Shown here one piece after another: positions 20,822-32,157 of a DNA stretch of 64,000 nucleotides. The notes under the pieces are model-generated. The model made no database searches and was not told where the DNA came from. It worked only from the letters and a program-made list of their open reading frames with translations. Source of the stretch: Deltaproteobacteria bacterium (GTDB lineage: Bacteria > Desulfobacterota > Desulfomonilia > UBA1062). The stretch's first letter is position 1; each line of letters begins with the position of its first letter. Both the position numbers and the translations under genes were made by a program. The stretch is taken from assembly GCA_015486075.1 (NCBI GenBank), contig WFSG01000048.1:1-64000 (forward strand). Direction: 5' to 3'.

Positions 20822-20896
20822 GGGCCGCTAGCTCAGTGGGAGAGCGCTACCTTCACACGGTAGAAGTCACAGGTTCAAATCCTGTGCGGCCCACCA
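20822..20896 (+). tRNA. tRNA-Val(CAC)
   Basis: A complete 75-nt cloverleaf. The acceptor stem GGGCCGC pairs with GCGGCCC, the D-arm contains GCTCAGTGGGAGAGC, and the anticodon stem CTACC/GGTAG frames the loop TTCACAC with anticodon CAC. The T-arm contains GGTTCAAATCC. The 3' CCA is encoded. It reads GTG valine codons. Confidence 0.95.
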
Positions 20897-21857: not shown

Positions 21858-22427
21858 TTATATGCCTGCCATTATCCTGGACAGTGTCTTTTGTAGGCAA
21901 ACGGTACCAGTATACCAGAAGTGATCTGCGCTCCTGCATAGGGTAAGTCTTTGTTCCTTTGTTATGTTGCTCAGTCTTACCGGGTCTGAGAACTGGTCAC
22001 TCGTTCCGGCAATTATCCATGCATTTCTTTCCTTGAGCGCTGGGAACTCAAAGATGTCCGACGGCGGTGAGATTAAGATGGCGTTGAACGGTGTTCTCTC
22101 TATGTACCTGGCAATTATCCATGCACCGAATGAATAACCGACTAGAAGCTTGATGTCTCCAGCATACCTGACAACCGTATCCAGGTCAGCCATCTCTCCC
22201 CCACCACCTGTGTACTGGCCCTCGCTCCTTCCCGTGCCCCTGAAGTTGAACCTGATTGCCTGGTAGCCATTCTCGATAGCAATGTTACTTGCCAGTTCCA
22301 CCACATGGTTGTTCATATTCCCACCGTACAGCGGGTGGGGATGCGTGAATACTACGTATGGAGAACCTTCTTTTCCTTCTACTATTGCTTCTAATCTGGG
22401 GTTGGCGTCTATCCATACATGGTTCAT
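21858..22427 (-). CDS. Alpha/beta hydrolase of the dienelactone-hydrolase-like group
   Basis: A compact 189-residue hydrolase. The segment FTHPHPLYGGNMNNHVV near residue 30 and FRGTGRSEG near residue 63 are typical of small CocE/UPF0227-like hydrolases. The nucleophile elbow GYSFGAW carries the catalytic serine near residue 98. An aspartate follows in GTSDQFSDP and a histidine in SADHFWYTG. It has no signal peptide, so it acts in the cytosol. The start has a weak ribosome site. Substrate unknown. Confidence 0.82.
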   Translation of the reverse strand: MNHVWIDANPRLEAIVEGKEGSPYVVFTHPHPLYGGNMNNHVVELASNIAIENGYQAIRFNFRGTGRSEGQYTGGGGEMADLDTVVRYAGDIKLLVGYSFGAWIIARYIERTPFNAILISPPSDIFEFPALKERNAWIIAGTSDQFSDPVRLSNITKEQRLTLCRSADHFWYTGTVCLQKTLSRIMAGI

Positions 22428-22575: not shown

Positions 22576-22604
22576 TTGACAATAATCTCAAAATATCGTT
22601 TTAT
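22576..22604 (+). promoter_or_regulatory. Promoter of the ior-liv-paaK operon
   Basis: A perfect TTGACA (22576-22581) is followed after 17 bp by TTTTAT (22599-22604, 4 of 6 matches). Transcription would start near 22611, a few bases before the leader-peptide ATGs, giving a nearly leaderless leader ORF. Confidence 0.55.
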
Positions 22605-22613
22605 CCTTAGGTT

Positions 22614-22664
22614 ATGATGATGAGAAGCAAGGGGGAATACTGGTGGTGGTTCGCATGTATATAA
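22614..22664 (+). CDS. Aromatic leader peptide of the ior-liv-paaK operon (16 codons)
   Basis: A short frame reading MMMRSKGEYWWWFACI. It carries Tyr (22638-22640), three consecutive Trp codons (22641-22649) and Phe (22650-22652), and stops with TAA at 22662-22664. Any of three tandem ATGs (22614, 22617, 22620) could start it; AGG at 22609-22611 would serve the later ones if it is transcribed. The frame lies between a TTGACA promoter and overlapping antiterminator and terminator hairpins, upstream of an aryl-pyruvate oxidoreductase operon. Such a run of aromatic codons in exactly this place is the hallmark of a ribosome-mediated attenuator sensing charged tRNA-Trp, and possibly tRNA-Tyr and tRNA-Phe. 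Translation is inferred, not shown. Confidence 0.85.
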   Translation: MMMRSKGEYWWWFACI

Positions 22665-22718
22665 GAAGGGTCGACTTCTGTGGAAAATCAAAGGAAGGCG
22701 GCCCTGGCCGCCTTTTTT
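22664..22718 (+). promoter_or_regulatory. Transcription attenuator: pause, antiterminator and terminator hairpins
   Basis: Region 1 AGAAG (22664-22668) can pair with region 2 CUUCU (22675-22679). Region 2, GGUCGACUUCU (22669-22679), can instead pair with region 3, GGAAGGCGGCC (22693-22703), making 10 of 11 pairs with one A-G mismatch and two G-U pairs. Region 3 also pairs with region 4: AAGGCGGCC (22695-22703) with GGCCGCCTT (22706-22714), followed by TTTT within a six-T run (22713-22718), a clear intrinsic terminator. A ribosome stalled at the Trp codons leaves region 2 free, so the antiterminator forms. A ribosome at the stop codon covers regions 1 and 2, so the terminator forms. Confidence 0.85.
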
Positions 22719-22765: not shown

Positions 22766-24565
22766 ATGTCTGAGAACATTTTACTTGGTAACGAGGCCAT
22801 TGGCTATGGAATACTTGCTGCAGGAGCAAGTGTGGTTACATCCTATCCTGGAACGCCTGCTTCCGAGATACTTGCAACTGTTATGAGGCTTGTCAGCGAG
22901 AACGATCTTCATGTACACGTGGAATGGTCGATAAATGAGAAAACCGCCTTTGAGATAGCCTTTGCCAATTCAATAGCTGGCAGGAGATCGGCTGTAAGTA
23001 TGAAGCAGGTGGGTCTTAACGTGGCATCTGATGCTGTTATTAGTGCCTCATACATGGGCGTAAAGGGTGGTCTTGTTCTCGTGGTAGCGGATGATCCGGG
23101 GCCGCACTCGTCCCAGACAGAGCAGGACACGAGATTATTTGCCATGTTTGCAAAGCTACCCGTGCTTGATCCATCCAGTCCTCAGGAAGCCATGGACATG
23201 GTTCAGATTGCATTCGAACTCTCGGAAAGATACAAGACCCCCGTAATACTTAGGCCAACTACCCGGGTTTGCCATGCAAGACAGGTTGTAAGACTTCCTG
23301 AAATAATAGATAACTATACACCTCCTAGCTTTGAAAAGGACCCTTTTCGATGGGCAGCAACGCCAGGACCTAGGCTGAGGTTGCATAGGGAGCTCAATGA
23401 AAAGCTAAAGAAAATGGCATCAGATGATCTTGCGAGCCCTAGTTTGATACTGAAAGGAAAGGGAAAACTTGCAGTTATCAGCTCAGGCGTTGCCTATGCC
23501 TACTTAAGGGACGTACTTGGTTTATCAACAAGCAGGGATATAAGTGTATACAAGGCAGGCATGGCCTATCCTCTAAACAGAGACTCTCTTGACCGTATTC
23601 TTGAAAGGTATGAGAGAGTGCTTGTTTTGGAGGAGACTGAACCAGTAATTGAGCTCCAGTTTTCTTCTAGACAAAAGGTCTCTGGCAGGCTTGACAGGGT
23701 TGTTCCAGGTGAGGGAGAACTGACACCTGACGTTGTGAGGCGGATTCTAGGAATCTTTACAGGTCTTGAGGACTATAATATCCCTGAACCGGCTTCCCAG
23801 AAGAGACCCTCTTTGTGTCCAGGATGTGCCCATAGGGCAGCTTTCTTCGGTATAAAATGGGGTGCACCGAAAGGTATATACACCTCTGATATTGGGTGCT
23901 ATACACTCGGACTAAACCTTGGTGCAGTTGATACTTGTCTATGCATGGGCGCATCGATAAGCCAGGCATGCGGATTCTATCATGCATACAAGGGTGAAAA
24001 CAATGCACCACCCATTGTTGCCACCATTGGAGACTCTACTTTCTTTCACGCAGGTGTTCCGCCTACTATAAACGCGGTTGTCACAGGTGCCAGGTTTGTC
24101 CTAGTGGTACTTGATAACGGTACAACAGCCATGACTGGTAACCAGCCTACTCCTGCCATTGGTTCGGTTGCAAATGACTTTGAAGGTAGGCAGGTAAGCA
24201 TTGAGCAGGTACTCAAGGGCTGCGGGGTAAAGACAGTACTCGTGGAGGATCCGTATAATGTTCCTAATTTTATAAAAACTGTAAAAAAAGCTAGGAAGAG
24301 AACTGAACAGGAAGGGGTTGTCGCCATAGTAGCGAGGCATCCGTGCATAAGGGACAAGGATGCACTGGCTGGACAGGACGTATATTCTATACAAATAACG
24401 GACAGGTGCAACAAGTGCAATTACTGCATTGACGAGTTCGAGTGTCCGGCTCTATACATGGGGGAATCCAAGGTGGAAGTAGACATGTCGATATGCATTG
24501 GTTGTGGTGTGTGTATCCATGCATGCCCGAGGCGTGCAATAGTAGCTGAGCCCATCAGAAGATGA
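22766..24565 (+). CDS. iorA: Indolepyruvate:ferredoxin oxidoreductase, alpha subunit
   Basis: Large subunit of the thiamine-diphosphate enzyme that oxidatively decarboxylates aryl-pyruvates (indolepyruvate, phenylpyruvate, 4-hydroxyphenylpyruvate) to aryl-acetyl-CoA with ferredoxin; the reaction is reversible. The 599-residue chain begins with the pyruvate-oxidoreductase domain (TSYPGTPASEI near residue 28). The TPP domain follows, with CPGCAHRAAFFG and the metal motif GDSTFFHAG. Two ferredoxin [4Fe-4S] motifs end the chain: CNKCNYC and CIGCGVC. AAAGGGG lies about 10 bases before the ATG. It heads the operon, directly after the attenuator; its partner iorB lies six genes downstream. Confidence 0.93.
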   Translation: MSENILLGNEAIGYGILAAGASVVTSYPGTPASEILATVMRLVSENDLHVHVEWSINEKTAFEIAFANSIAGRRSAVSMKQVGLNVASDAVISASYMGVKGGLVLVVADDPGPHSSQTEQDTRLFAMFAKLPVLDPSSPQEAMDMVQIAFELSERYKTPVILRPTTRVCHARQVVRLPEIIDNYTPPSFEKDPFRWAATPGPRLRLHRELNEKLKKMASDDLASPSLILKGKGKLAVISSGVAYAYLRDVLGLSTSRDISVYKAGMAYPLNRDSLDRILERYERVLVLEETEPVIELQFSSRQKVSGRLDRVVPGEGELTPDVVRRILGIFTGLEDYNIPEPASQKRPSLCPGCAHRAAFFGIKWGAPKGIYTSDIGCYTLGLNLGAVDTCLCMGASISQACGFYHAYKGENNAPPIVATIGDSTFFHAGVPPTINAVVTGARFVLVVLDNGTTAMTGNQPTPAIGSVANDFEGRQVSIEQVLKGCGVKTVLVEDPYNVPNFIKTVKKARKRTEQEGVVAIVARHPCIRDKDALAGQDVYSIQITDRCNKCNYCIDEFECPALYMGESKVEVDMSICIGCGVCIHACPRRAIVAEPIRR

Positions 24566-25419
24566 GTGGCATTGTCCAGTACATACTAACAGGAATAAGC
24601 ATAGGAACCATATATGGACTTATTGCCATAGGGTTTGACCTCACCTACAATACAACGGGTATTATCAATTTTGCACAGGGTGAGTTTGTGATGCTGGGTG
24701 GAATGTTCTCTGTTGCCCTCTTACGCATACCAGGAATGCCCGCATGGATATGTATTGTGCTTGCCATAGCACTTACCTCCCTTGTAGGCTTGGCCATGGA
24801 AAGGACAGCTATAAGACCTGTAAAGAGTGCCAGCCTGACTACTGCTATCATTATAACCATCGGTGTATCCATAGTAATAAAGGCATCTGTTGGCTGTTTC
24901 ACAAAAGACGAATTCGTGATACCTAGCCTTCCTGGGCCTGTGTCCATGCGCATACTTGGAGCAAGCATAACGTCCCAGGCCATCTGGAACATGTCCATAG
25001 GCATGTTAATCGTCCTCGCACTCTGGGCCTTTCTTAAGTATACATTTGTAGGTATAGCCTTAAGGGCTATGGCAGAAGATAGGACGAATGCGGCAAACCT
25101 AGGCCTGGCAGCAGACAGACTGTCTCAACTCTCTTTTGGCCTGAGTGCTGGCATAGGTGCAATTGCAGGAATTCTCATTACGCCGATAACTCAGATGAGT
25201 TGGCTGAGGGGGACCGACCTTGGATTGAAAGGCTTTTGTGGCGCAGTACTAGGTGGTATGGGAAGCCTACCGGGTGCGATAATAGGGGGAATACTCATAG
25301 GTATTGCCGAGACAACGGGTAATGTAATCCTGACCGGCTACAAAGATGTCATTGCTTTCTCCATAGTGATACTGGTTCTTTACATCAGGCCACAGGGCAT
25401 TATGGGGGGAAGGCTATGA
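24562..25419 (+). CDS. livH: Branched-chain amino acid-type ABC permease LivH
   Basis: Inner-membrane permease of the hydrophobic amino acid transporter family, 285 residues with about eight membrane helices. The N-terminal YNTTGIINFAQGEFVMLGG is the classic LivH signature, and ALRAMAEDRTNAANLGL near residue 168 is the EAA-like loop that docks on the ATPase. It starts within the last codons of iorA (4-bp overlap, ATGA), which ties transport to the oxidoreductase. The operon context points to aromatic amino acids or aromatic acids as cargo. Confidence 0.92.
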   Translation: MSGIVQYILTGISIGTIYGLIAIGFDLTYNTTGIINFAQGEFVMLGGMFSVALLRIPGMPAWICIVLAIALTSLVGLAMERTAIRPVKSASLTTAIIITIGVSIVIKASVGCFTKDEFVIPSLPGPVSMRILGASITSQAIWNMSIGMLIVLALWAFLKYTFVGIALRAMAEDRTNAANLGLAADRLSQLSFGLSAGIGAIAGILITPITQMSWLRGTDLGLKGFCGAVLGGMGSLPGAIIGGILIGIAETTGNVILTGYKDVIAFSIVILVLYIRPQGIMGGRL

Positions 25420-26381
25420 AGAAGATACTACTCTTCATTATTGTCTTTATACCTCCGGTCTTTCTGTTCAAGGGTGAGTATGCCTATTTTCTTTCAATAA
25501 TGGCAATAGCCGGTATATATGCTATCGTGGCCATGAGTCTCAATATACTAGTGGGCTATACAGGCCAGATATCACTTTGCCATGCAGGGTTCTTCGGGCT
25601 TGGTGCATATAGTGCGGCCATCGCCTCGGTAAGCCATGGCATTAACCCATGGTTTTCACTAGCATTTGCCTTTCTTGTGCCAGGCATGTTGGCACTTCTT
25701 GTAGGGATACCCACGGTGAGGCTGAAAGAACATTACCTTGCAATGGCAACGCTCGGTATAGGTATAATAATTTACGGGGTATTACGTGCAAACCCATGGG
25801 ATATAACCGGTGGGCCAGGTGGTATATGCTCCATACCAAGCCTCGTTGTCCTAGGCAAGGCCATTGAAAGCGACGTTGGTCATTACATAGCCGTACTTTT
25901 ATTTCTATCCATAATACTCTTCTTCTCACATTTGCTTGTAAACTCAAGATTTGGCCAGCTTATGGAGGCAATAAATTCAAGTCCCCATGCAGCCATGTCA
26001 GTTGGTATAAACGTGAACATGGTGAGATTAAAGGCCTTTGTCCTTAGCGCATCGATGGCAGGTCTTGCAGGTGGACTATACTCATTTCTATCACCGTTGA
26101 GCTATATAAACCCTGATGACGTTGCATCGGTTATGCTTTCCGTAAAGTTTATAGCAATGGTAGTCATAGGGGGGCTATTTAGTCTGACAGGGGGTATTGT
26201 GGGAGCACTCATCCTTACTTGGTTGCCAGAACTTCTAAGGCAAGTAACCCAGTATACGCCTGGGATCAGTCCGAGCGACCTGGAATCCATAATATATGGC
26301 ATGGCATTTATAGCCATAATGATTATGTATCCTAGGGGTCTTGTTTCTCGTTGGGAGGGACATGGATATTCTCAAGGTTAG
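25416..26381 (+). CDS. livM: Branched-chain amino acid-type ABC permease LivM
   Basis: Second membrane permease of the Liv transporter, 321 residues with about nine hydrophobic segments. The LivM signature SLNILVGYTGQISLCHAGFF is at residues ~42-61 and the cytoplasmic loop GQLMEAINSSPHAAMSVGIN near residue 185. It overlaps livH by 4 bp and livG by 20 bp. Confidence 0.92.
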   Translation: MKKILLFIIVFIPPVFLFKGEYAYFLSIMAIAGIYAIVAMSLNILVGYTGQISLCHAGFFGLGAYSAAIASVSHGINPWFSLAFAFLVPGMLALLVGIPTVRLKEHYLAMATLGIGIIIYGVLRANPWDITGGPGGICSIPSLVVLGKAIESDVGHYIAVLLFLSIILFFSHLLVNSRFGQLMEAINSSPHAAMSVGINVNMVRLKAFVLSASMAGLAGGLYSFLSPLSYINPDDVASVMLSVKFIAMVVIGGLFSLTGGIVGALILTWLPELLRQVTQYTPGISPSDLESIIYGMAFIAIMIMYPRGLVSRWEGHGYSQG

Positions 26382-27117
26382 GTCGCTCAGCAAAAGCTTT
26401 GGCCCTATAAAGGCCGTTTCATCGGTGGATATGGATATTAAGCAAGGCAGTATAACTGCACTCATAGGCCCCAACGGCGCAGGCAAAACAACTACTTTCA
26501 ACATGATTACGGGTTTCATGAAACCTGATGCAGGTCGTGTTTTTTTTGCTGGAAAGGATATAACGGCTTGGCCAGCCTATAGGGTGGCAAGGCTGGGGCT
26601 TGTAAGAACGTTCCAGCGCCTTGAGGTATTCAAAGAGATGAGCGTGCTGGATAACGTCAAGATAGCCTCCTTGGGAATTAGTATGCAGGGCCTAATGAGG
26701 TCTATGTTCAGGCCTCCTTCTTATGTACGTGAAGAGAGTAAGGCACTCGAGATCTCTGTGAATGCCCTTGTTGATGTTGGGCTTAAGGATTCAATGCATA
26801 AGCCTGCCGGATTGCTTACATTTGGACAACTCAGGTTGCTTGAGATAGCAAGGGTGCTTGCAACAGGGGCAAGCATGATGCTGCTAGATGAACCTGCGGC
26901 TGGCCTTAACTCGGTTGAGGTCGAGGGATTTGCAACGCTCATGAAGGACATTAGGGCACGAGGAATAACCATATTTCTAATTGATCATGATATGAAGCTG
27001 GTCATGGATATATCAGACATGGTTATAGTACTTGACCAGGGTGTAAGGATAGCCTCAGGAAGACCCGAGGAGGTAAGGACAGAACCTAGGGTTATAGAGG
27101 CATACCTGGGGGCATAG
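26362..27117 (+). CDS. livG: ABC transporter ATP-binding protein LivG
   Basis: First ATPase of the Liv transporter, 251 residues from ATG 26362. That start is chosen because GGGAGG lies four bases upstream at 26353-26358; an in-frame TTG at 26341 has no such site. Walker A is GPNGAGKTT, Walker B is MMLLDEPAAGLN, and the switch histidine is in FLIDHDM. The signature region is FGQLRLLEIAR, where the usual LSGGQ is replaced by TFGQL, a common LivG variant. Confidence 0.92.
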   Translation: MDILKVRSLSKSFGPIKAVSSVDMDIKQGSITALIGPNGAGKTTTFNMITGFMKPDAGRVFFAGKDITAWPAYRVARLGLVRTFQRLEVFKEMSVLDNVKIASLGISMQGLMRSMFRPPSYVREESKALEISVNALVDVGLKDSMHKPAGLLTFGQLRLLEIARVLATGASMMLLDEPAAGLNSVEVEGFATLMKDIRARGITIFLIDHDMKLVMDISDMVIVLDQGVRIASGRPEEVRTEPRVIEAYLGA

Positions 27118-27119
27118 GT

Positions 27120-27857
27120 ATGCTTGTTGTAAGGAACCTGAACACATATTACGGGGCAGTACATGTTATAAAGAACCTCTCCCTGCATGTTGACAAAGGC
27201 GAAATTGTAGCCATCCTCGGGGCGAATGGAGCGGGTAAGTCAACGCTGATGAATACCATAGCCGGTCTTGTCAGCCCAAGGGATGGTGAGATACTTGCCG
27301 ATGGAGTCAACATAAAGGGACTCTCTCCGGGCGAGATAATATCCATGGGTATAGCCCTAGTACCCGAGGGCAATACACTTTTTTACGGCCTTAGCGTGAG
27401 GGAGAACCTGGCCCTAGGCCTTGCTCACAGGTCACTCAGGATAACTCCCAGTGTCCGTTCCATGTTAGACGAGGCACTCGAGATATTTCCATCACTTGCA
27501 GGCAAGCGCAATGTAAGTGCTGGTAGTCTGTCCGGAGGTGAACAGCAGATGCTCTCTATAGCTAGGGCCCTGGTAAGTAGACCGAGGATATTGTTGCTGG
27601 ACGAACTATCTATGGGTCTTGCACCAAACACAACCGCTCTTATATTCTCTCGTATAGCAGAGATAAACAAATCCATGGACACGAGTATCCTGATCGTCGA
27701 ACAAAATGCCAGGCTTGCGCTTGATATATCATCCAGGGGATATATTATGGAAACGGGCAAGGTGATCTTCAAGGGAAGTTCGGCTGATCTAAGGGATAAT
27801 CCCGAGATCCTGAGATCTTATCTCGGTGGAGCAGGAGGAAAGGATGCATTACCGTAA
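27120..27857 (+). CDS. livF: ABC transporter ATP-binding protein LivF
   Basis: Second ATPase of the Liv transporter, 245 residues. Walker A is GANGAGKST, the signature is LSGGEQQML, Walker B is ILLLDELSMGLAP and the switch motif is LIVEQNA. It starts two bases after livG and overlaps the paaK start by 14 bp. The LivF hallmark LVPEGNTLFYGLSVRENL is intact. Confidence 0.92.
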   Translation: MLVVRNLNTYYGAVHVIKNLSLHVDKGEIVAILGANGAGKSTLMNTIAGLVSPRDGEILADGVNIKGLSPGEIISMGIALVPEGNTLFYGLSVRENLALGLAHRSLRITPSVRSMLDEALEIFPSLAGKRNVSAGSLSGGEQQMLSIARALVSRPRILLLDELSMGLAPNTTALIFSRIAEINKSMDTSILIVEQNARLALDISSRGYIMETGKVIFKGSSADLRDNPEILRSYLGGAGGKDALP

Positions 27858-29163
27858 TACTGGAGCGGCAGACAGGGAAGAGCTGAGGCAGCAGCAACTT
27901 GAGGGACTGCAGGCAACCCTGAACAGGGTGTACAGGAACGTGAGGTATTACCATGATCTTTTTAAGGACATAGGGTTAGTTCCTGAAGACGTTGGGTCCA
28001 TTGATGATCTTTCTTCCATACCCTTTACAACGAAGGCTATATTAAGAGATAATTATCCATACGGTTTGTTTGCACTTCCTTTATCTGAGATAATGAGCGT
28101 GCATTCCTCTGCAGGGACCACGGGTAGGCCAACTGTTGTAGGGTTCAGTGCCAATGACATGCTTAACTGGAGGGAAGTGGAGCTCAGGGTACTTGAACTT
28201 GCCGGCATTACCAGAGATGACGTGGTGCAGATAGCATTTGGTTCAAGTTTCTTTACCGGTGGTTTTGGCCTTCACTACGGTGTTGAGAAACTAGGTGCAA
28301 CCATGATACCCACGTCAAGTGTTGACCTGGAAAGACATGCCGTGATGATACGCGACTACAGGGTAACCACCCTCATTTCTACGCCCTGCTATGTGTATGC
28401 ACTTATGGAGACCATGGATAGAATGGGTATGGACAGGAGAAGTCTATCCCTTCAAAAGGTCCTGCTTGGTGGTGAGCCCTGGACTGAAGAGCAAAGGTCG
28501 TATATTGAAGAAGGCCTTGGTGTAAAGGCATTTGATCACTACGGTCTAAGCGAGATATTTGGCTCTGGCGTAGCAGCGGAATGCGAGTACAAGTCTGGCC
28601 TCCACGTGTTCGAGGATCAGGTTATACCAGAGGTTATTGATCCTGGCACAGGCGAGGTGCTAGGACATGGCAACGAGGGAGAATTGGTACTTACCACAAT
28701 AACAAAGGAAGCCATGCCACTAATAAGGTTCAGGACAGGTGACCTGACGACTCTTATCGAGGAGCCCTGTGAGTGCGGCAGGGCATACCTTGGTCTGAAA
28801 ATGGCAAGGGTAAAAGGACGTGCAGATGACAGCATTGAGGTATCAGGGATCCAGATCTCTGCATCAAGGATAGAGGACGTGCTAAGGATGATAGGTGGTG
28901 CTTTGCCGAGATTTCAAGTAATCGTGGACAGGGAAGGAACAAACGACATTGTAGAAGTACACGTGGAGGTCTCAGGGGAGGTTTTCTCAGGCGGAAAACA
29001 AAGACTGGATGAGATAGAGAAAAGGCTTAAGCAGGACATCAGGTCGCAGCTTATAGATCTACTAGGCTCGGAAGTGAGACTCAAGTTTTACGCACCCATG
29101 GGTCTGTCAGGGGTGCTGGAACGAAGGGCAAGGATAGTAGACAGGAGGTTCTTAAGGCAGTAA
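27844..29163 (+). CDS. Phenylacetate-CoA ligase family protein (first copy)
   Basis: AMP-forming ligase of 439 residues that joins an aryl-acetate to CoA. The adenylate P-loop SSAGTTGRPTVVGFS lies near residue 87, YGLSEIFG near residue 235 and FRTGDLT near residue 297. A CEC...CGR-like segment and the C-terminal lid GRADDSIEVSGIQISASRIE follow. The ATG at 27844 follows GGAGG (27834-27838); a GTG 18 bases upstream is in frame but lacks a site. Coupled with IorAB it links free aryl-acetate, aryl-acetyl-CoA and aryl-pyruvate. Exact aryl substrate unknown. Confidence 0.87.
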   Translation: MHYRNTGAADREELRQQQLEGLQATLNRVYRNVRYYHDLFKDIGLVPEDVGSIDDLSSIPFTTKAILRDNYPYGLFALPLSEIMSVHSSAGTTGRPTVVGFSANDMLNWREVELRVLELAGITRDDVVQIAFGSSFFTGGFGLHYGVEKLGATMIPTSSVDLERHAVMIRDYRVTTLISTPCYVYALMETMDRMGMDRRSLSLQKVLLGGEPWTEEQRSYIEEGLGVKAFDHYGLSEIFGSGVAAECEYKSGLHVFEDQVIPEVIDPGTGEVLGHGNEGELVLTTITKEAMPLIRFRTGDLTTLIEEPCECGRAYLGLKMARVKGRADDSIEVSGIQISASRIEDVLRMIGGALPRFQVIVDREGTNDIVEVHVEVSGEVFSGGKQRLDEIEKRLKQDIRSQLIDLLGSEVRLKFYAPMGLSGVLERRARIVDRRFLRQ

Positions 29164-29197: not shown

Positions 29198-30334
29198 ATG
29201 AGGAGGTTTGTACTAGGAATTATGATGATGATGCTTTTTGGGATGCCACTGTATGGCCAGGAACCCATTAAGGTTGGAGTACTGGTGGCATTATCAGGTC
29301 CGGTGGGTTTTATCGGAGAACCATCAAAAAAGGTTGCAATTATGGCGGCGGATGATATCAATACATCCGGGGGCATTAATGGTAGGCCCATAAAACTTGT
29401 GTTTGCTGATACCGAGAGTAATCCGGGGAAGGCTGCCCTGGAGGCAAAGCGCCTAATTGAGAAGGAGAAGGTAGTTGCCATTGTAGGCCCGACTAGCACG
29501 GGCTCTGCCATGGCATGCCTCAAGATAATACAAGCTAGCAAGACGCCAACCATCGGATGCGTGGGTGGTACTCCACCAGTAGAGCCCGTGAGGCAATACA
29601 TGTTCAAAACCCCTCAGAAGACTGTAACGGCGGTGAGGAAGGTCTACATATTTCTTAACAAGAGAGGAAAGAAACGTATAGCCATAATGACTGCTACAAA
29701 CAAGTTCGGTCAGGAAGGGAGGGCATCTCTTAAGAGGCTTGCGAAAGAGTATGGTATAAACATCGTGGCTGACCAGACGTTTGATGTCACTGATACTGAT
29801 GTCACGGTGCAGCTTACCAAGATAAAAAAGATGCATCCCGATGCCGTTGTATGCTGGACCATAGGTGGTGTAGGGGCGATAGTGGCAAGGAACTTCAATC
29901 AACTCGACATGGGGATGCCACTCATACAGTGTCATGGCCTGGCCGATCCCAAGTACGTAGAGCTGGCAGGCGATGCCTGCGAGGGTAACATTATGCCATC
30001 AACCAAGCTAATGGTGGTTGACCAAGTCCCTGCGAATGATCCTCAGAAGCCTGTACTACTGAGGTTCAAGCATGAGTACGAGGTTACAAGGCATATCGGA
30101 AAGGTGAGTGCCCATTCTGGATATGCATGGGATGCCATGCAGATCCTGGCGATTGCGCTTAGGAAAACGAACGGAAAGGGTGGGCTAGAACTTGCCAAGG
30201 CAATAGAAGGTGTAAAGGGGTATGTCGGAGTGAGCGGTATATACAATATGAGTAGCACGGATCATTGTGGCTTGGGTGTTGATTCAATGGTCATGATTCA
30301 AATAAAAGGCGGGAAATGGCAACTCGTAAGATAG
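29198..30334 (+). CDS. Periplasmic amino-acid-type ABC substrate-binding protein
   Basis: Type I periplasmic binding protein (Peripla_BP_6, LivK-like), 378 residues with an N-terminal signal peptide ending near PLYGQ. It begins IKVGVLVALSGPVGFIGEP after the signal, with DDINTSGGINGRPI near residue 58 and VGPTSTGSAMACLKI near residue 96. It is the only binding protein in the operon and so should feed LivHMGF. GGGAGG precedes the ATG. The cargo is inferred to be aromatic from the leader peptide and the neighbouring enzymes, not from the protein itself. Confidence 0.9.
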   Translation: MRRFVLGIMMMMLFGMPLYGQEPIKVGVLVALSGPVGFIGEPSKKVAIMAADDINTSGGINGRPIKLVFADTESNPGKAALEAKRLIEKEKVVAIVGPTSTGSAMACLKIIQASKTPTIGCVGGTPPVEPVRQYMFKTPQKTVTAVRKVYIFLNKRGKKRIAIMTATNKFGQEGRASLKRLAKEYGINIVADQTFDVTDTDVTVQLTKIKKMHPDAVVCWTIGGVGAIVARNFNQLDMGMPLIQCHGLADPKYVELAGDACEGNIMPSTKLMVVDQVPANDPQKPVLLRFKHEYEVTRHIGKVSAHSGYAWDAMQILAIALRKTNGKGGLELAKAIEGVKGYVGVSGIYNMSSTDHCGLGVDSMVMIQIKGGKWQLVR

Positions 30335-30837
30335 ACATGCAGATCTTCATTGTAGGCACAGGCGGGCAGGGAGTTGTTCTTCTTGGGAGGGTCCTCTCTG
30401 AGATGGGCTCAAGGGTCAGCCACAAGGTTATTGCCTCCGAGACCCATGGTATGGCAATGAGGGGCGGTAGTGTTACAGCTAGCGTGAAGATAGGTGACTA
30501 CGAGAGTCCCTTGATACCATCGGGTTCAGCAGATGTGCTCATTGGTCTTGACTCACTTGAGGCAAGAAACCATATGTACATGCTGGCTACAGAAGGTATC
30601 TCCATAGTAAATACGCTTGAACCCGACGGTTTTGACTATACGATGGACGCAACAGGTATGGCCATGAGGGAGAATATGCCCGGGTCTCTGAACATGATCA
30701 TGCTGGGCCTTTTCTTAAAGGTCGCAGTGCCCGGGCTTGATCTCCAACTTGCCATCTCTGTGATAAATGACCTATCTCCACCAAGGTTCAGGAATGATAA
30801 CGTAAGGGCTCTTAACATGGGTTTCAGCTCTGCATAG
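30316..30837 (+). CDS. iorB: Indolepyruvate:ferredoxin oxidoreductase, beta subunit
   Basis: Gamma-domain subunit of the aryl-pyruvate oxidoreductase, 173 residues. The family hallmarks are FIVGTGGQGVVLLGRVLSEMG near the N-terminus and SETHGMAMRGGSVTASVKIG near residue 47. The ATG at 30316 overlaps the binding-protein gene by 19 bp; ATG 30337 (MQIFIVG) is a plausible alternative start. It is separated from iorA by six genes but lies in the same operon. That spacing is unusual, because iorA and iorB are normally adjacent. Confidence 0.92.
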   Translation: MATRKIDMQIFIVGTGGQGVVLLGRVLSEMGSRVSHKVIASETHGMAMRGGSVTASVKIGDYESPLIPSGSADVLIGLDSLEARNHMYMLATEGISIVNTLEPDGFDYTMDATGMAMRENMPGSLNMIMLGLFLKVAVPGLDLQLAISVINDLSPPRFRNDNVRALNMGFSSA

Positions 30838-30873: not shown

Positions 30874-32157
30874 ATGTCTTTTATGCCTGGTTTCAGGAAT
30901 AAGCAGGAATTGGATGAGATACAACTAGAGGGCTTGAAGTGGACAGTCCGCCATGCCTATAACGGCTCTGAGTTTTATAGGAAAAAACTGGATGATGCAG
31001 GTGTCAGGCCCGAGGATATAAAAAGCCTTAATGATATACGGAAGCTACCCTTTGTAACGGCCGACGATCTTAGGGATGGTTATCCATGGCCTTTGAGATC
31101 TGTGCCTTTCAAGGACATAGTAAGGATACACGCCTCTTCAGGTACGACAGGCAAGAGGAAGGTCATGGTCTATACTCGTAAGGATATTGATGACTGGGCC
31201 GATATGTTTGCAAGGTGCTATGAGATGGCAGGACTCACTGAAGAGGATAGGGTACAGATATGTGTAGGCTATGGTGTTTGGACCGCAGGGGTAGGATTCC
31301 AGCTTGGTTGTGAGAGATTCGGAGCACTTGCTATACCAGCTGGTCCAGGCAACATCGATATGCATATGCAGTTTATAATGGATTTCAAGCCCACGGTGAT
31401 ATGTTCCACCGCATCAATGGCACTATTACTAGCCGAGGAGGTGGAAAGGAGAGGTCTTAGAAAAAGCTTGAGCATCAGAAAGGTCATAATGGGTGCAGAA
31501 CGCTCAAGCGATTCAATGAGGGCAAAGATAAAGGATCTACTCGGGCTTGAGCACATATTCGACATACCAGGCCTTACCGAGCTATATGGTCCTGGTACTG
31601 GTTTGGATTGTGAGTACCACACTGGCATACACTACTGGGCAGACTATTACATCCTTGAAATAATAAACCCAGATACCTTGGAGCCAGTACCCGAGGGTGA
31701 GATAGGGGAGATGGTGTTTACCACGTTGAGAAAGGAAGGTGCGCCACTAATAAGGTATAGATCCAGGGACCTGACCAGACTTGTACCGGGTGAATGCCCT
31801 TGCGGCTCTCCACTACCTAGACATGATAGAATAATGGGAAGGTCTGACGACATGTTCACCTTTAGGGGTGTCAACATATACCCAAGTCATTTAGATGAGA
31901 TACTATCTAAGCATACGGATATAGGTAGCGAGTATCAGATACACCTTGAGAGGAAAGAAGACGGCAAGGACTACATGATCATAAGGGTAGAAAGGGCTGA
32001 GAATGCCGGACCTGTACGTGATGAAGACATCGCCTCGAGGATAGAAAAGGATATAAGGGAGAGTCTTCTCGTAAGGGGTAAAGTGGAGATCGTTGACCAT
32101 TATAGTCTCCCTAGAACGGGAAGGAAGACCAAAAGGGTCTTTGATAATAGGGACTAG
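30874..32157 (+). CDS. Phenylacetate-CoA ligase family protein (second copy)
   Basis: A second AMP-forming aryl-acetate ligase, 427 residues. It is clearly related to the first copy but diverged (P-loop SSGTTGKRKVMVY, LTELYGPG, YRSRDLTRLVPGECPCG, lid GRSDDMFTFRGVNIYPSHLDE). A strong GGGAGG stands upstream. Two ligases in one operon suggest different aryl-acetates, for example phenyl- and indolyl-acetate, which is inference. It is the last intact gene of the operon before a broken zinc-ribbon frame. Confidence 0.9.
   Translation: MSFMPGFRNKQELDEIQLEGLKWTVRHAYNGSEFYRKKLDDAGVRPEDIKSLNDIRKLPFVTADDLRDGYPWPLRSVPFKDIVRIHASSGTTGKRKVMVYTRKDIDDWADMFARCYEMAGLTEEDRVQICVGYGVWTAGVGFQLGCERFGALAIPAGPGNIDMHMQFIMDFKPTVICSTASMALLLAEEVERRGLRKSLSIRKVIMGAERSSDSMRAKIKDLLGLEHIFDIPGLTELYGPGTGLDCEYHTGIHYWADYYILEIINPDTLEPVPEGEIGEMVFTTLRKEGAPLIRYRSRDLTRLVPGECPCGSPLPRHDRIMGRSDDMFTFRGVNIYPSHLDEILSKHTDIGSEYQIHLERKEDGKDYMIIRVERAENAGPVRDEDIASRIEKDIRESLLVRGKVEIVDHYSLPRTGRKTKRVFDNRD

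Follow-up and report, generated by a model that had tools for sequence, protein, structure and literature searches.

The closest described systems are the attenuators of tryptophan operons and, for the enzymes concerned, an archaeal aryl-acid route. In the trp leader of Escherichia coli (Rfam RF00513), a short open reading frame carries consecutive Trp codons, its stop codon precedes region 2, and the antiterminator (2:3) and the terminator (3:4) exclude each other. The trpLE(G) attenuator of Sinorhizobium meliloti controls trpE(G) in an alphaproteobacterium; its transcript is leaderless, starting at the leader-peptide ATG (PMC7298713). Trp attenuators of Actinobacteria lie upstream of trp operons and trpS, that is, of biosynthesis operons and a tRNA synthetase. 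They contain UGG runs of two or three codons and a triple-pairing core common to terminator and antiterminator, and no ior, liv or paaK target is described in that work (PMC1262725). Indolepyruvate:ferredoxin oxidoreductase (IOR) is usually described as a catabolic or fermentative enzyme (PMC5817080). In the archaeon Methanococcus maripaludis, IOR is on record as a biosynthetic enzyme that starts from aryl acids, with no attenuator (cited in PMC4162585). No report joining a leader peptide or attenuation with ior was found in the open-access literature, in agreement with the first-pass annotation of the present locus, whose author knew of no leader-peptide attenuator on the ior-liv-paaK gene set. 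As far as that literature goes, little has been published on leader-peptide attenuation in the phylum at all.

The element described here lies in a 64,000-nucleotide stretch of DNA from a member of the Desulfobacterota (the window). It is very probably a transcription attenuator worked by the ribosome, sensing charged tRNA-Trp and controlling an IOR/arylacetate-CoA ligase operon (table 1). An open reading frame with Trp codons follows a promoter, a terminator stands between this frame and the first structural gene, and an antiterminator makes use of the terminator 5' arm. By the spacing, region 2 would be free when the ribosome stalls on Trp and masked when it reaches the stop codon. Promoter, 16-codon Trp frame, terminator and alternative pairing had all been listed in the first-pass annotation, and all are present in the window. 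The terminator, put there at 22695–22718, and the alternative pairing, put at 22669–22679 with 10 of 11 pairs, are both real, and the spans found are those of table 1, slightly larger in the case of the pairing. The label of an aromatic-amino-acid attenuator has to be narrowed to that of a Trp attenuator, Trp being the only residue common to all leaders, with Tyr and Phe variable.

Table 1. Leader elements and downstream genes, in window coordinates.
Feature	Position	Strand	Remarks
-35 hexamer TTGACA	22576–22581	+	identical TTGACA in 12/12 loci of the window's family (f1)
-10 hexamer TTTTAT	22599–22604	+	17-nt spacer from -35; consensus match only
Predicted transcription start	~22611	+	from promoter consensus match
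Leader peptide ORF MMMRSKGEYWWWFACI	22614–22664	+	16 codons; ATG 22614, stop TAA 22662–22664
Three Trp codons (sensing codons)	22641–22649	+	Trp run kept in all leaders
Possible 1:2 (protector) hairpin AGAAG...CUUCU	22664–22679	+	weak; from fold
Region 2, antiterminator 5' arm	22667–22679	+	12 pairs, p 0.001
Region 3, shared arm	22693–22705	+	partners: region 2 (antiterminator) or 22707–22718 (terminator)
Intrinsic terminator hairpin and U-run	22691–22718	+	12 pairs, then T-run
iorA, indolepyruvate:ferredoxin oxidoreductase alpha	22766–24565	+	TIGR03336, 654.3 bits (above cut-off, 650.9)
livH-like permease	24562–25419	+	PF02653
livM-like permease	25416–26381	+	PF02653
livG-like ATPase	26365–27117	+	PF00005, PF12399
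livF-like ATPase	27120–27857	+	PF00005
PaaK-like arylacetate-CoA ligase 1	27826–29163	+	PF00501, PF14535; TIGR02155 below cut-off
Liv-type substrate-binding protein	29198–30334	+	PF13458
iorB-like gamma/beta subunit	30316–30837	+	PF01558; IorB models below their cut-offs
PaaK-like arylacetate-CoA ligase 2	30874–32157	+	PF00501, PF14535; TIGR02155 below cut-off

The mechanism is that of classical attenuation, already known; what is new is the target operon, with a predicted leaderless layout in part of the range. With E. coli trpL the element shares the run of Trp codons in a short frame, the stop codon before region 2, the mutually exclusive antiterminator and terminator, and a similar distance from Trp codons to region 2. 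It differs in its target, in a transcript predicted to be leaderless, and in the weak 1:2 hairpin, which is predicted in the window and is not evident in a family relative (L009). The claimed closeness to E. coli geometry stands for the spacing but not for the 5' untranslated region, of which the predicted transcript, unlike that of E. coli, has almost none. The RF00513 model finds no match in the leader, either at its gathering score or at E values up to 10. A low-threshold search of Rfam returned sub-threshold chance matches only, the best of them to GibS sRNA with 25.8 bits against a cut-off of 115, and the leader is covered by no Rfam family. Just upstream of the leader region, a tRNA gene occupies window positions 20822–20893 on the plus strand (Rfam match, 70 bits).

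The pairing potential was assessed against shuffled sequence. In the window the antiterminator, which contains one mismatch, has an energy of -18.8 kcal/mol, where shuffles average -8.1, and the leader region as a whole folds better than shuffles (z -3.1). Folding in the two states, proposed earlier as a check, gave the anticipated structures: the minimum free energy fold is the antiterminator for RNA ending at 22705, where the terminator 3' arm has not yet been made, and the terminator for RNA from 22656 on, where the leader frame is masked. Across 15 clade representatives, the region 2:3 pairing beats that of shuffled region 2 (Fisher p 8e-16). Among 11 species of f1, 80% of cells in the antiterminator columns are paired (0 of 500 shuffles; 38–54% when slid), and pairing in the terminator helix is complete (100%) and includes two compensatory pairs. 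Covariation counts in this family are modest, at 2–3 compensatory cells.

The geometry of the leaders is equally regular. In f1 leaders the stop codon follows the last Trp codon at 12 or 15 nt and immediately precedes region 2; the start of the terminator is 40–46 nt past the last Trp. The majority of the other groups have a region 2 that overlaps the final leader codons, so that motifs such as GTCCACCGC or TCTGCCCA are at once codons and antiterminator arm. In each of the 28 loci analysed, region 2 starts 12–32 nt past the last Trp codon and lies clear of a stalled ribosome, whose footprint was assumed to extend some 11 nt beyond the A-site codon on the downstream side. A Trp stall leaves region 2 fully exposed, and a ribosome at the stop codon covers 50–100% of it (28/28). 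For a ribosome on the last Trp codon, the antiterminator is the fold predicted before the 3' arm is made in 27 of the 28 loci; for a ribosome at the stop codon, the predicted fold is the terminator in every locus. For full-length leaders at equilibrium with a stalled ribosome the terminator is the more stable structure in 26/28, so the switch must be kinetic. Anatomy, conservation, pairing potential and geometry together suggest a response to Trp of the following kind. (i) When Trp-tRNA is ample, the ribosome would reach the stop codon and cover region 2, and the terminator would form ahead of iorA. (ii) When Trp-tRNA is scarce, the ribosome would stall on the Trp codons and leave region 2 free. 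(iii) Free region 2 would then capture the terminator 5' arm, allowing RNA polymerase to read into the ior operon.

Conservation was examined in iorA homologues from named genomes, 60 relatives and 395 genomes of the phylum, by reading the upstream DNA under a fixed rule: a short frame with clustered Trp, and a terminator hairpin with T-run 25–90 nt past the last Trp codon. This rule was passed by 44 of 131 iorA upstream loci, some of which represent the same genome in two collections; of 1310 dinucleotide-shuffled controls 4 passed, and of 131 reverse complements none. After removal of identical proteins and correction of three calls by eye, the attenuator is present in 29 of 111 rows. The automatic calls L103 and L165 were dropped, as they have no strong terminator and the wrong spacing; L179 was counted as a carrier by eye. 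By group code, carriers belong to at least six family-level groups (f1, f71, f21, f28, f38 and f12), the f71 carriers including Desulfacinum infernum and D. hydrothermale, and the attenuator occurs in two further Desulfobacterales metagenome-assembled genomes (MAGs; L019, L020). Conservation of the leader frame and paired regions in relatives, which the first-pass annotation had made a touchstone of its reading, is found in the window's family and in five more. A W-run leader followed, at a nearly constant distance, by a terminator is found at every examinable f1 iorA locus of the window type. The leader peptides differ widely outside the Trp run, as in MSGNQILGNIGRWFWWWSSPQVKPVHR, MGKNKLTFWGWWWWKNQGGEVCP and MVRYSCLNWWRKEK. 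When a covariance model built from the f1 leaders was run on 24 family genomes, 12 of them yielded a single strong match (E no higher than 4e-9), in every case immediately ahead of iorA; no other match was better than E 0.019. It is mainly this conservation that excludes chance for the window leader.

In some species no recognisable Trp leader precedes the same operon, at L166, L174, L176, L182 and L187, and one was looked for without success at the IOR-alpha paralogues of the window's genome (L002, L003). Four of these loci (L166, L174, L176 and L187) are ior-liv operons of Desulfacinum-like relatives; L174 and L187 retain a similar terminator hairpin (GGCCGTG...), possibly a decayed or re-tuned attenuator. 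On a quick FastTree phylogeny of IorA the attenuator appears in several separate clades, with 8–9 changes, which would fit either a common origin with losses or repeated gain.

The leader peptide of the f1 attenuator is predicted to be translated from a leaderless transcript. Its start codon lies 7–9 nt past the -10 hexamer in 12/12 f1 loci (9 nt in the window; the others are L009–L018 and L084), no more than about 3 nt from the expected transcription start. The same distance of 9 nt is seen in the two Desulfobacterales MAGs, and the Trp leaders of trp operons in the family (L132–L141) start 6–9 nt past the -10. In the other groups, the leaders leave enough space for a Shine-Dalgarno sequence. 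For comparison, 11 of 54 window genes have a promoter-like match of such quality, and one of the 11 starts at such a distance. Since a leaderless trpL is known in Sinorhizobium, the f1 layout would be a recurrence rather than a first case.

The gene order iorA-livHMGF-paaK-SBP-iorB-paaK given for the downstream operon was borne out by Pfam and NCBIfam. The iorB-like protein contains the POR gamma domain (PF01558) and scores 94 bits against the curated IorB cut-off of 205.8 (TIGR03334). Both ligases miss the curated PaaK cut-off (TIGR02155), with 409 and 407 against 646.3 bits, and are best termed PaaK-like, with putative substrates. Their sequences are clearly different from each other, and so may be the aryl or acyl acids that they activate. 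Among f1 relatives, most have an attenuated operon of iorA-iorB-paaK only, so the function under control is IOR with arylacetate-CoA ligase and not transport.

What this function serves is suggested by the regulation. An operon that is off when Trp is plentiful fits supply and not degradation, and the ior operon would thus be a salvage route from arylacetate to amino acid, induced by Trp starvation. Under starvation, PaaK would activate arylacetates to CoA thioesters, which IOR would reductively carboxylate to arylpyruvates, precursors of Trp and perhaps Phe or Tyr; the Liv transporter, where present, would import the substrate. The M. maripaludis route provides a parallel for the biosynthetic direction; here the direction is inferred from regulation and gene content. 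The broader proposal is that, in Desulfobacterota-type anaerobes, IorAB and a PaaK-like ligase form a dedicated, Trp-starvation-induced salvage of arylacetates (indoleacetate first) into Trp and other aromatic amino acids, in one Trp regulon with trpEGDCFBA and with both leaders leaderless in the window's family. It is favoured here, if by no means assured. A T-box search upstream of 26 more distant ior loci, for the most part Firmicutes ior-paaK operons, gave no match, so the Trp-supply reading draws no independent support from that quarter.

The attenuator could also be real and the operon nonetheless serve uptake and oxidation of aromatic amino acids in peptide fermentation, attenuation merely tuning import to need. 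Annotations commonly give IOR and PaaK a catabolic or fermentative role (PMC5817080), and the window operon does include a Liv transporter with its binding protein. Shutting off at plentiful Trp is, however, backwards for a degradative operon, and the transporter is missing from the attenuated operon of most f1 relatives; this explanation is judged rather unlikely. Far less probable is a leader of the tnaC type with the opposite sense, that is, read-through at high Trp. Such control would suit a catabolic operon, and leader peptides are capable of acting through nascent-chain stalling, but nascent-chain sensing would require conserved residues around the Trp run and these are not conserved between families. 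Runs of 2–5 Trp fit codon starvation, and throughout, an intrinsic terminator is preceded by an antiterminator arm that a Trp-codon stall would expose. That the hairpin simply ends an upstream transcript and the short frame arose by chance, with no regulation, can hardly be credited: intrinsic terminators alone are common, but the upstream gene (21858–22427) lies on the opposite strand and needs no plus-strand terminator, and frame, spacing and pairing are conserved over six families, at the rates against shuffles given above.

Attenuators tell the purpose of an operon, as they open on starvation for the amino acid that is sensed. A conserved Trp attenuator on ior-paaK therefore argues for a biosynthetic or salvage direction in these lineages, against the usual degradation annotation in anaerobes, and this direction would change the metabolic reconstructions of many uncultured anaerobes. 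Leader-peptide attenuation itself gains a target other than a biosynthesis operon and, probably, a leaderless variant.

The window's genome also encodes a full trpEGDCFBA operon with a Trp leader of its own, so the ior operon shares its control with Trp synthesis. When this genome was scanned by pattern for other WW leaders followed by a T-run, none but the ior and trp leaders stood out, and Trp leaders are present in 8 of the 10 trp regions searched in the family. In most of the eight genomes read (L132–L141), a near-perfect palindrome, GTTTCTATRTATAGAAAC, overlaps the -10 of the trp promoter; it is absent from the ior promoter. The copy in the window's genome lies near position 6738 of contig C27 (G000), on the minus strand. 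The palindrome looks like a candidate repressor operator, acting on top of the trp leader attenuator.
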